Shown here: positions 21,232 through 23,951 of the stretch, piece by piece
Layout: each line of letters opens with the position of its first letter
Position numbering within the stretch: the first letter of the stretch is position 1
Source of the DNA: Spirochaetales bacterium
GTDB taxonomy: Bacteria > Spirochaetota > Spirochaetia > Treponematales > UBA12059
NCBI GenBank assembly: GCA_016926955.1
Contig: JAFGNN010000017.1
Span: 1-56,444 of the forward strand
Direction: 5' to 3'
Length of the DNA: 56,444 bases
Translations under genes and position numbers: made by a program
The notes under the pieces: model-generated
What the model saw: only the letters and a program-made list of their open reading frames with translations
Databases searched by the model: none
Told to the model about the DNA's origin: nothing

Positions 21232-21753
21232 ATGGACATGCCGCTCGTACTGCGCCGCCACGCGTCCGGCGCCCTCGTATACTCGATCTCCCCCTGGTAT
21301 CGCGCCGGCGCCGCGGCGATGCTCTGCCTCATCGTCGCCGCCATCGCGAGCGCGGGCGGAACCGGCGTCTTCGGCTGGATTTTCGTGGTCGGCGCCTTTG
21401 TCGCCGCTTTCTACGAGGAGCGCTGGACCTTCGACCCGGCGCGTGACCTCGTGGCCTGGCGCGTCGGCCTGCTGTTTCTCGCGCGCCGCCGCACCGTCGC
21501 CGTCTCCAAACTGCGCCGTTTCTCGCTCCGCGCCTACCGGCGTGGCGTGGAGGACCGGGCTCGCGGGGCGGAGCTCGCCGACGGGCCAGCGGGCTCGCGC
21601 GGGGGGCGAGGCCTCGAATGGCGCGTAATGGCTGAACTGGCCGACGGAACCGAGCTCGTCATTGACGCATCCCGGTCTCATGGCAAGAACCGGCTGGCCG
21701 CGGTCGCGGTGAAGCTGTCCGAGGCGCTCGGCAAGCCGTTCGGGGAAGATTGA
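21232..21753 (+). CDS. small membrane protein with a PH-like cytoplasmic domain (paralogue 1)
   Basis: A 173-residue protein of no assigned function. Two hydrophobic helices (AAAMLCLIVAAIASAGG and GVFGWIFVVGAFVAAF) are followed by a soluble domain beginning with RWTFDPARDLVAWRVGLLFLARRRTVAVSKLRRFSL. The same layout (two helices, then a block ending in a xLxxIxLS/F strand) occurs at 31876-32370, and it resembles bacterial PH-like (DUF304/bPH) proteins. The ATG at 21232 has GGAGG 6 nt upstream. It follows the phosphatase by 61 nt and may share its transcript. Confidence 0.7.
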   Translation: MDMPLVLRRHASGALVYSISPWYRAGAAAMLCLIVAAIASAGGTGVFGWIFVVGAFVAAFYEERWTFDPARDLVAWRVGLLFLARRRTVAVSKLRRFSLRAYRRGVEDRARGAELADGPAGSRGGRGLEWRVMAELADGTELVIDASRSHGKNRLAAVAVKLSEALGKPFGED

Positions 21754-21846
21754 CGGCGCGGTCGGATCCCGCGAGGACAAGGCAGGACGGACTCGGGCGC
21801 TTCCTGTTTCCCGGGTGCACACACCCATTCACTACAGGGGCGCAAG

Positions 21847-21978
21847 GTGTGTTAAAAGGAAACACGCACGTGTGTTAAAAGGAGCCGCGAGAGCGCCCTC
21901 GGCCTCTCGCCGGCTTCTTCCGCCACATCCGCTTCGCGCCGCATGCTTTTCATGCAAGTGCGACTGCATGTGCAAGTG
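21847..21978. promoter_or_regulatory. direct repeats upstream of the hsp20 promoter, possible activator sites
   Basis: GTGTGTTAAAAGGA occurs twice, at 21847-21860 and 21870-21883, 23 nt apart (about two helical turns). Further on, TGCAAGTG occurs at 21953-21960 and 21971-21978. This is the least GC-rich stretch of the region and lies about 90-225 nt before the sigma54 promoter, the usual place for enhancer-binding activator sites. No activator gene is in the window. The other bases of the 481-nt gap hold a degenerate repeat half-copy (22001-22055), the promoter and a structured leader. Confidence 0.45.
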
Positions 21979-22000
21979 TTGTTGTAACAGTTAATTACGC

Positions 22001-22055
22001 CCTCTCCTTCTCCTTCTTGGCTCTATGTCTCCATGCCTCTGCGGTTTTTTTTCCA
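22001..22055. repeat. degenerate half-copy of the dispersed element (copy B)
   Basis: Pyrimidine-rich CTCCTTCTCCTTCTTGG then TGTCTCCATGCCTCTGCGG resembles the right arms at 4.0, 25.7 and 53.9 kb with several changes. No left arm was seen. Confidence 0.45.
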
Positions 22056-22068
22056 CCACTTGGTGAAG

Positions 22069-22085
22069 TTGGCACGCGGTTTGCA
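22069..22085 (+). promoter_or_regulatory. sigma54 (RpoN) promoter of hsp20
   Basis: TTGGCACGCGGTTTGCA matches the -24/-12 consensus at every invariant base. GG at 22071-22072 and GC at 22083-22084 are separated by the required 10 nt. Transcription is expected near 22096. No competing sigma70 promoter or CIRCE element was seen. Confidence 0.85.
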
Positions 22086-22095
22086 ATATTGGTAG

Positions 22096-22234
22096 TGAGA
22101 GCGATGGAGCCCCCGTTCGGGGACCCGGCCGGTGGCCGGCGACCATCGCCTCCGGTCCGCGGCGCCAAGCCGGGACCGGCGAAATACCGTTCCTGCCATG
22201 GCGCGACGAGAGCGCCATAGAAATGGAGGAGACC
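22096..22234 (+). promoter_or_regulatory. highly structured 5' leader of hsp20
   Basis: Starting 5 nt after the predicted sigma54 start, GCGATGG (22101) pairs with CCATCGC (22143), enclosing two hairpins: CCCC/GGGG with a GTTC loop and CCGGCC/GGCCGG with a GGT loop, i.e. a three-way junction. Next come CCGGTCC/GGACCGG (22152 and 22173) and ATGGCGC/GCGCCAT (22198 and 22212). The ribosome site follows at once. A thermosensor is an attractive but unproven idea; the Shine-Dalgarno is not within the strongest stems. Confidence 0.6.
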
Positions 22235-22678
22235 ATGAACCGCAGCCTGATCGCCTACGAACCCGCCGTCGCCAGCGTTTTCGACGAGATGGAGAACCTG
22301 ATGAACGGCTTCTGGACCGGCGCCCGCGCCGGCCTTGCCCGCGGCGCTTCCCGCGTTCCGGCGGTGGACATCCGCGAGGAGAAGGAGCGCTACGTGCTCG
22401 AAGCCGAGCTTCCCGGCCTGACCGAGAAGGACGTCGAACTCAAGGTGGAGGACGGCATCCTGACCCTGCAGTCGAAGGTCGAGGAGAAGCGCGAGGAGCG
22501 CAAGGAAGGCTGGTTGCTCCGCGAGCGCTCCCGCGCCTCGTTCAGCCGGGCCTTCAGCCTGCCCCGCGATGTCGACGCCGAGAGCATCAAGGCGACGTTC
22601 CGCAACGGCCTGCTCGAGGTCGAGGTGCCAAAGAGCGCCGCGGCCCGCGAGAAGAAGATCGAGATCAAGGTCGCCTGA
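22235..22678 (+). CDS. hsp20: small heat-shock protein, Hsp20/alpha-crystallin family
   Basis: A 147-residue ATP-independent holdase chaperone. After a ~45-residue N-terminal arm comes the alpha-crystallin domain: VPAVDIREEKERYVLEAELP, the ERSRASFSRAFSLPRDVD segment and FRNGLLEVEVPK, where the usual A-x-x-x-N-G-[VL]-L signature is recognisable. It prevents aggregation of unfolding proteins as an oligomer in the cytoplasm. ATG at 22235 is used because GGAGGAG lies 3-4 nt upstream; the earlier in-frame ATG overlaps that site. It is monocistronic, with a sigma54 promoter and an intrinsic terminator. Confidence 0.95.
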   Translation: MNRSLIAYEPAVASVFDEMENLMNGFWTGARAGLARGASRVPAVDIREEKERYVLEAELPGLTEKDVELKVEDGILTLQSKVEEKREERKEGWLLRERSRASFSRAFSLPRDVDAESIKATFRNGLLEVEVPKSAAAREKKIEIKVA

Positions 22679-22689
22679 GTAGAGGGAAA

Positions 22690-22840
22690 TCGACGCCGAG
22701 GCGCCGTTGAGCAGCTAGCCAGGTCTGAAGCCTGAGAGAGTACGACACCGAGGCGCAGAGACGCAGAGGGGAACGGCAAGACCGCTCCCCTCTTTTTTAT
22801 CTTTCCAGTTCCTCGGCGTTCTCGGCGCCTCGGCGTTTTC
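22690..22840. repeat. divergent dispersed inverted-repeat element (copy C)
   Basis: Left arms GACGCCGAGGCGCCG (22692) and CACCGAGGCGCAGAGACGC (22746) face a right arm CTCGGCGTTCTCGGCGCC (22812-22829) plus CTCGGCG. It is a variant of the ACCACGGAG family with CGAGGCG units. A terminator sits at its centre. Confidence 0.5.
22767..22798 (+). terminator. intrinsic terminator after hsp20
   Basis: AGGGG and CGG pair with CCG and CCCCT around a five-base loop, followed by C and six T residues. It lies about 90 nt past the hsp20 stop. Confidence 0.75.
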
Positions 22841-22847
22841 TTCGCAT

Positions 22848-23951
22848 CTAGAGCAGGTCGGTGCGGCCGAGGGCTTTCCAGGCTTCGACGGCGTCCTTTA
22901 CGCGCTGGGTCTCGCCCTTGCGGGCCACCAGCACGGCGCCGTGCTTGACCACCACCACAAGGTCCTCGACGCCGCAGAGCGCCACGGGCAGGTCGGAGTA
23001 GACGAAGCAGCCGGTCGAGCCCGGTTCCACCACCTCGCCCGAGTGGCGTGAGAAGAGCGTGGCGAACTCGTCCCAGCTGCCCACGTCGTCCCAGCCGAAG
23101 GCCGCGGGCACGAGGGCGACGCGCGGGCATTTTTCGCTGACCGCGTAGTCGAGGCTGATGGCGGGCGTCGCGTCGTAGGCGGCCGCGAAGCCTTCCCAGG
23201 CTTCGAGCACGAAGGCGCCCGAACGCTCCGCGAAGCGCGGCTCCGCGGCGGCGAGCGGCGCGAAGGCCGCCGCCACCTCGGGGGCGCGGGTTTCGAGCTC
23301 CTCGCGCATGAGGTCGAAGCGCCAGCCGTACATGCCCGAATTCCAGTAGAAGTTGCCGGCCGCGAGGAAGGACTCGGCCGTGGCCCGGTCGGGCTTTTCG
23401 CGGAAACGCGCCACCCTGAAGCCGGACCCGAGCTGCTCCGAGGTCTCGAGGTAGCCGTAGCCCGTGGCCGGGCCGCGGGGCTTGATGCCGAAGCACACCA
23501 GGTTGCCGGCCTCCGCGAGGGCGGACGCGCGCGCGGCGTCCGCGACGAAGGTCTCCGCCGGCTCGATCAGGTGGTCGCTGGTGAGGAGCAGGGCCGAGCC
23601 GCCCGCTTCCGGGGTCGGCGCGCGCCCGGGCAGGCCGGGCTTTTCGAGCAGGGCCAGGGCCGCCGCGACCGCGGGCGCAGTGTTGCGCGCTCGCGGCTCC
23701 GGCAGCACGAGCACGCGCCCGCGGGCCTCCGGGCAGGCTTCCACCTCGGAGAGCAGGGCGTCGAGCTGGACGGCGCCGCACACCACGAGCACCGAGCCCG
23801 AGGGCCCGAGCGCGAGGGCGCGTTCGAGGGCCATGCGGAAGAAGGAGCGGCCGCCCTCGAGCGACATGAACTGCTTGGGACTCTTCGCCACGGAGGCGGG
23901 CCAGAGCCGGGTGCCGGCTCCGCCGGCCAGGATTACGATGTCGGTGAACAT
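22848..23951 (-). CDS. manC: mannose-1-phosphate guanylyltransferase
   Basis: A 367-residue cytoplasmic nucleotidyltransferase making GDP-mannose from GTP and mannose-1-phosphate for envelope glycans or exopolysaccharide. Motifs are VILAGGAGTRLWP (GTP binding), KSPKQF (lysine loop), GYGYLE, FREKPD (catalytic lysine) and WDDVGSW. It has only the transferase domain, without the C-terminal isomerase cupin of bifunctional forms. ATG at 23951 is the family start; a TAAAGT box lies 7 nt upstream and no ribosome site intervenes. It is divergent from ackA and monocistronic. Confidence 0.93.
   Translation of the reverse strand: MFTDIVILAGGAGTRLWPASVAKSPKQFMSLEGGRSFFRMALERALALGPSGSVLVVCGAVQLDALLSEVEACPEARGRVLVLPEPRARNTAPAVAAALALLEKPGLPGRAPTPEAGGSALLLTSDHLIEPAETFVADAARASALAEAGNLVCFGIKPRGPATGYGYLETSEQLGSGFRVARFREKPDRATAESFLAAGNFYWNSGMYGWRFDLMREELETRAPEVAAAFAPLAAAEPRFAERSGAFVLEAWEGFAAAYDATPAISLDYAVSEKCPRVALVPAAFGWDDVGSWDEFATLFSRHSGEVVEPGSTGCFVYSDLPVALCGVEDLVVVVKHGAVLVARKGETQRVKDAVEAWKALGRTDLL

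Follow-up and report, generated by a model that had tools for sequence, protein, structure and literature searches.

A conserved sigma54 promoter and upstream enhancer palindrome, with a 5′-terminal leader hairpin, at the small heat-shock gene of spirochaetes

The small heat-shock gene hsp20 of a Spirochaetales bacterium lies behind a sigma54 promoter and an upstream enhancer palindrome, and its predicted mRNA begins with a stem-loop that carries compensatory base changes among relatives; promoter, enhancer motif, their conservation and the covariation of the leader were all observed computationally. We consider it reasonably probable that they belong to a single circuit, in which hsp20 would be subject to Rrp2-type, enhancer-driven sigma54 transcription and its mRNA would be stabilised by the 5′ stem-loop. 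In detail, sigma54 RNA polymerase would transcribe hsp20 from the promoter at 22069–22085 of the window (the whole stretch of DNA analysed, 56,444 bases, which is contig C29 of the assembly G000, 3.38 Mb and 98% complete), and transcription would be opened by an enhancer-binding protein on the palindrome at 21848–21864, putatively the orthologue of the response regulator Rrp2. The same enhancer would drive a sigma54-dependent RpoS/RpoD-like sigma factor, and since hsp20 and this sigma factor have the enhancer in common, one stress signal would raise both, that is, the chaperone directly and a wider gene set via the second sigma factor. The 5′-terminal stem-loop would protect the hsp20 message from 5′-end-dependent decay, by analogy with ompA. 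The identity of the activator, the inducing signal and the function of the RNA are what we infer here; the features are collected in Table 1.

Table 1. Features at the hsp20 locus, in window positions
Feature	Position	Strand	Basis
Enhancer palindrome (UAS) TGTGTTAAAAGGAAACA, 222 bp upstream of the promoter	21848–21864		11.8 bits, held-out matrix
Degenerate second copy or half site TGTGTTAAAAGGAGCCG	21871–21887		Third-best in window, 1.9 bits; weak alone
sigma54 -24/-12 promoter TTGGCACGCGGTTTGCA	22069–22085	+	Exact match; kept in 15/15 family orthologues
Predicted transcription start	22096	+	Placed 12 nt after the -12 C; purines 22095 and 22097 equally possible
5′-terminal three-way junction	22097–22152	+	Fold; covariation over 14 family leaders
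Outer stem of the junction	22097–22107/22143–22152	+	Fold, family covariation
Extra hairpin within the junction	22111–22122	+	Fold; insertion in window and sister
Conserved inner hairpin CCGGCC-GGU-GGCCGG	22125–22139	+	Fold, family covariation
Second hairpin, genus-specific	22153–22178	+	Fold; in the sister, stem unchanged, one loop change
Third hairpin, pairing the ribosome site (22190–22198 with 22224–22231)	22190–22231	+	Fold; kept in sister only
Ribosome-binding site GGAGGAG	22225–22231	+	Read from the sequence; start codon from the alignment with relatives
hsp20, small heat-shock protein, 147 aa	22235–22678	+	Pfam HSP20, E 2.6e-25
Likely terminator, GAGGGGA...TCCCCTC then T6	22766–22798	+	Read by eye

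The hsp20 gene and its sigma54 promoter

The Pfam match confirmed the chaperone gene that had been named from the sequence alone, and the protein is 97% identical to that of the closest sampled relative, the MAG 'Spirochaetes bacterium QR_Bin.15' (JADFDI010000001.1). Its start codon was set at ATG 22235 by alignment of the window start MNRSLIAYEP with the MKSVVTYNP start of relatives; ATG 22223, which overlaps the ribosome site, was rejected, as the alignment favours the later codon. The likely terminator downstream was absent from the output of a consensus scan; given this terminator, the hsp20 transcript is probably monocistronic. An inverted repeat resembling CTCTGCGTCTCTGCG was also seen 3′ of hsp20 (22746–22768 and 22821–22835), and a CTCTGCG sequence resembling it is found shortly before the promoter, at about 22037, and in the sister genome.

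The promoter fits the sigma54 pattern TGGCAC-N5-TTGCA/T, with its GG (22071–22072) and GC (22083–22084) 10 nt apart, and TTGGCACGNNNNTTGC occurs once in the 56,444 bases, with 0.00 occurrences expected from 100 shuffles. No sigma70-like site was found in 21700–22850, and no CIRCE, hence no sign of the HrcA/CIRCE arrangement, at up to 3 mismatches in the 56-kb window. The sequence-only reading, which had described a perfect sigma54 site with 10-nt GG–GC spacing and neither a sigma70 site nor CIRCE, was thus correct on each of these points. RpoN itself is encoded in the same genome (PF00309 match at G000:C67, E 3.4e-14).

All 15 direct hsp20 orthologues of the family carry the sigma54 site, at 96–154 bp before the reference start and with scores of 10–12 of 12; the distant HSP20-like paralogues that these genomes also encode (L020, L026–L031) are without one. 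In a named scan of 80 hsp20 loci (65 spirochaete, 14 non-spirochaete, plus L037), a near-perfect sigma54 site was found upstream of hsp20 in 63 of the 65 spirochaete loci vs. 1 of the 14 non-spirochaete loci, the two spirochaete loci without it being L059 and that of Breznakiella homolactica (L086). These counts, together with those of the family, suggest that spirochaetes as a group, and not just this locus, have hsp20 under sigma54 control. The additional locus, L037 (JAKLDU010000140.1), is titled Deltaproteobacteria, but its hsp20 is of spirochaete type and has the leader hairpin of the family; it is probably a mislabelled bin or a case of transfer.

The enhancer palindrome, its targets and the candidate activator

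Promoters of the sigma54 type depend on an upstream-bound activator. When the DNA upstream of 69 hsp20 loci was searched for dyads without bias, GTGT-N-ACAC dyads emerged, which were refined to the 17-bp palindrome TGTGTCANNNTGACACA. This palindrome scored above 8 bits in 65 of the 69 loci, as against 2.05 in shuffled sequence, and was centred 95–248 bp upstream of the sigma54 promoter. When the window was scored with a matrix built from other genomes only, the window and its sister being left out, the hsp20 copy was the top position in the whole 56 kb, the next one reaching 5.9 bits. It is a diverged copy that keeps 11 of 14 consensus positions, TGTGTCAAATAGGAACA occupies the equivalent position in the sister genome, and a weak second copy lies 23 bp further downstream. 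At the level of the motif, the window promoter therefore appears to have its upstream activator site. The palindrome is absent from the sequence-only reading and was revealed by comparison; the enhancer-driven sigma54 initiation proposed there is strongly supported by the spirochaete-wide conservation of the promoter and by the conserved enhancer site.

Further sigma54-type promoters of G000 precede a peroxiredoxin gene, two RpoS/RpoD-like sigma factors, an exported protein and others. Among those scored, the enhancer was found only at hsp20 (11.8 bits) and at a 291-aa RpoD/RpoS-like sigma factor (15.7 bits), five others scoring -0.6 or less. In G000 and G060 alike, the 291-aa factor has both promoter and enhancer; in G060 the only perfect enhancer stands 138 bp before the sigma54 promoter of this gene, and a pair of kinase and sigma54 activator is encoded beside it. 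This predicted sigma54-to-sigma70-family cascade of G000 resembles the RpoN–RpoS cascade of Borrelia. The sigma54 site of the 291-aa factor is perfect and followed by a 13-nt leader (G000:C45:2005–2020, minus strand); the sister keeps the site (G005:C18:39752–39767), and its enhancer there is weak (6.8 bits). A second RpoS-like factor of 279 aa has a sigma54-type site without the enhancer (G000:C60:44718–44733, minus strand; G005:C16:283026–283041). At the peroxiredoxin gene the sigma54 site is perfect (G000:C6:40677–40692, minus strand), a NorR-like activator is encoded divergently, and the predicted mRNA likewise begins with a hairpin.

Of the eight sigma54 activators encoded in G000, P0001 (locus L117) alone is a reciprocal best hit in each of the six other genomes compared. 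P0001, the Rrp2 orthologue of G000, has receiver, AAA+ and HTH domains and lies behind its kinase in a murG-cvpA-holB-HK-RR operon (G000:C69:27903–29255), the context of HK2. The same operon was found in a Treponema pallidum-like genome and in a Borreliaceae-type genome (both labels inferred, the latter from its gene content, its 27.5% GC and its 917 kb chromosome), the regulator of the latter being 53% identical and its kinase–regulator pair being what we take to be HK2–Rrp2. The recognition helix IGRKTL is invariant in all 14 orthologues with a readable C-terminus. Operon synteny, the reciprocal best hits of P0001 and this invariant helix together indicate that the activator of hsp20 is likely the Rrp2 orthologue. 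With eight activators in the genome, another one might serve hsp20, for example the response regulator L120, which has reciprocal best hits in five of the six other genomes; however, it has none in G009, though the hsp20 of G009 has the enhancer. Enhancer copies at the operon of the P0001 orthologue also speak against such an alternative: G059 (Sphaerochaeta halotolerans, through L079) has four enhancer sites, two at hsp20 promoters and one at the head of this operon, and G061 similarly has the enhancer at its hsp20 promoters and at the head of murG-cvpA-holB-kinase-activator. We therefore regard a different activator as rather unlikely. The NorR-like (L121) and RtcR-like (L122) proteins were rejected because they are not conserved in Sphaerochaeta-type genomes.

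Structure and possible function of the leader RNA

The window leader folds at -74.2 kcal/mol (z -2.39), and 1 of 200 shuffles was as stable. The sequence-only reading had filled the leader with three structures, a junction and two hairpins, from 5 nt after the predicted start up to the ribosome site; the three elements were recovered, but folding begins already 1–2 nt after the start, and the last hairpin contains the ribosome site instead of stopping there. The second and third hairpins are limited to the genus of the window. The first element has a family counterpart, an outer stem from +1 around a GGCC-GUR-GGCC hairpin, and comparison with relatives revealed it to be conserved with compensatory changes; the refuting outcome named in the sequence-only reading, a structure not conserved in relatives, was thus not seen for this element. 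Over 14 sequences, 85.7% of cells pair vs. 30–48% with the partner slid, and double changes were found in 9 of 14 pairs. The covariation score was 0.358 vs. 0.209 ± 0.026 in shuffles, which keep the column make-up and not the relatedness of the leaders, the structure having been named after these sequences were viewed; therefore, it counts as support and not as a strict test. Between sister and window, changes fell on 11 of 91 paired vs. 15 of 48 unpaired positions (Fisher p 0.011).

Across the phylum, the 5′ ends of 57 leaders, which are related and not independent, folded more than shuffles, with a mean z of -2.17 vs. -0.16 for a coding control (p 7e-13). Beyond the family of the window, leaders still have a hairpin at the 5′ end, but its sequence and shape are not conserved. 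The hairpin model matched only the hsp20 leader in G000; a match in G022, with neither sigma54 site nor Hsp20 reading frame beside it, was judged false. When relatives were searched at the DNA level with the leader, the matches were limited to the leader of the sister, a short stretch in G004 and a different sigma54 promoter. In Rfam, the leader matched no family, thermometer families included.

The stem at the extreme 5′ end is usually separated from the ribosome site by weakly structured sequence, and the conserved stem begins within a few nt of the predicted 5′ end. A base-paired 5′ end makes cleavage by RNase E far slower (PMC3997798). Most likely, on this analysis, the 5′ stem-loop stabilises the hsp20 mRNA. 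The ompA-type stem-loops (PMC3997798) are alike in the position of the stem, which lies at the 5′ end or adjoins it and, as in most relatives here, leaves the ribosome site outside; the window leader differs as a larger three-way junction, for which a stabilising role is proposed by analogy. Alternatively, the leader might be recognised by a protein, for instance by Hsp20 in a feedback like that of IbpA, which in E. coli represses its own translation via its leader (PMC10474464); the conserved core GGCC-GUR-GGCC in the inner hairpin of the family would agree with this. However, relatives beyond this family share no more than having a hairpin at the 5′ end, which is easier to reconcile with a stabiliser than with specific recognition, and the ribosome site usually lies outside the leader structure; we thus hold protein binding to be unlikely.

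The temperature sensing suggested by the sequence-only reading would have the third hairpin hide the ribosome site when cool and open on heating. Thermometers are indeed frequent on small heat-shock genes (PMC10474464, PMC4166951), and as in ROSE, fourU and cyanobacterial hsp17 thermometers (PMC3669281, PMC4477652) the structured leader of the window has a paired ribosome site, with an unpaired fraction of 0.09–0.13 at 37 °C, a degree of closure matched by none of 30 shuffled leaders, and the sister species retains the hairpin. But this pairing was found in window and sister only: over 69 leaders, the unpaired fraction of the ribosome site was 0.415 vs. 0.413 with shuffled leaders, and many leaders of other families are unstructured beside it. 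Unlike those known thermometers, the leader lacks a family match, and its pairing is very stable, the hairpin being predicted in silico to stay closed to at least 65 °C (0.19 unpaired at 65 °C). As the pairing is not conserved and no melting is predicted below 65 °C, a thermometer is quite improbable. Of the double-gated system envisaged from the sequence alone, the enhancer gate stands; the second gate is not supported, the conserved leader hairpin being more likely a stabiliser.

Relation to known systems and significance

The Rrp2–RpoN–RpoS pathway of Borrelia burgdorferi (PMC1976401, PMC4014564, PMC12472547) is similar in having an orthologous activator encoded in the same order of genes, in using sigma54 and in targeting a second sigma factor, while the circuit proposed here differs in including hsp20 and a clear enhancer site. 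Heat-shock genes are changed in Rrp2 mutants (PMC12472547). Counting against a link between Rrp2 and the palindrome, Rrp2 of B. burgdorferi was reported not to bind near rpoS and to activate independently of an enhancer (PMC1976401). In Borreliaceae-type genomes, the dyad was found upstream of hsp20 in 6 of 7 (10.9–14.5 bits where scored), as the best match in about 31 kb of their sequence, and a degenerate sigma54 site at hsp20 in 5 of 7. At the loci L292, L294, L295, L296, L297 and L298 the dyad is TGTGTATTTATTATACA or similar, which fits the spirochaete enhancer, and with the exception of L295 a degenerate sigma54 site TTTGGTAYG...TTTTTGCA accompanies it; in G132 the hsp20 promoter looks lost. 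As a lead only, these dyads and degenerate sites support the tentative idea that the palindrome is an ancestral target of the Rrp2 family, part of a chaperone and sigma-factor stress circuit that may later have been narrowed to rpoS in the Lyme-disease spirochaetes; we regard this as possible, with the balance somewhat against it.

Reading of a small heat-shock gene by sigma54 is also known for E. coli ibpB (cited in PMC4370416); in E. coli, ibpAB is also transcribed by sigma32, whereas no sigma70-type site was found at the hsp20 here, which has a phylum-conserved sigma54 site and enhancer. The sigma54 chaperone regulons predicted for Bacteroidota and Planctomycetota (PMC12316311) likewise have sigma54 sites at small heat-shock and other chaperone genes, but the available part of that study neither lists spirochaete hsp20 nor gives an enhancer for it. 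A literature search, in which few subscription papers were covered, returned no paper linking spirochaete hsp20 to sigma54 or Rrp2. As far as this search shows, the conserved promoter–enhancer unit of spirochaete hsp20, its sharing with a sigma factor, the probable Rrp2-family link and the conserved 5′ hairpin are new.

These results would place the spirochaete small heat-shock gene in an enhancer-dependent sigma54 circuit, and not in a sigma32, HrcA or thermometer system, and they supply a concrete DNA site with two predicted direct targets, hsp20 and the sigma factor. Rrp2 is essential in Borrelia for reasons other than sigma54 activation. With no site near rpoS having been found, a defined ancestral site would make the question of the DNA targets of Rrp2 testable, and the conserved 5′ hairpin would represent a phylum-wide leader element with a measurable effect on the life of the mRNA.
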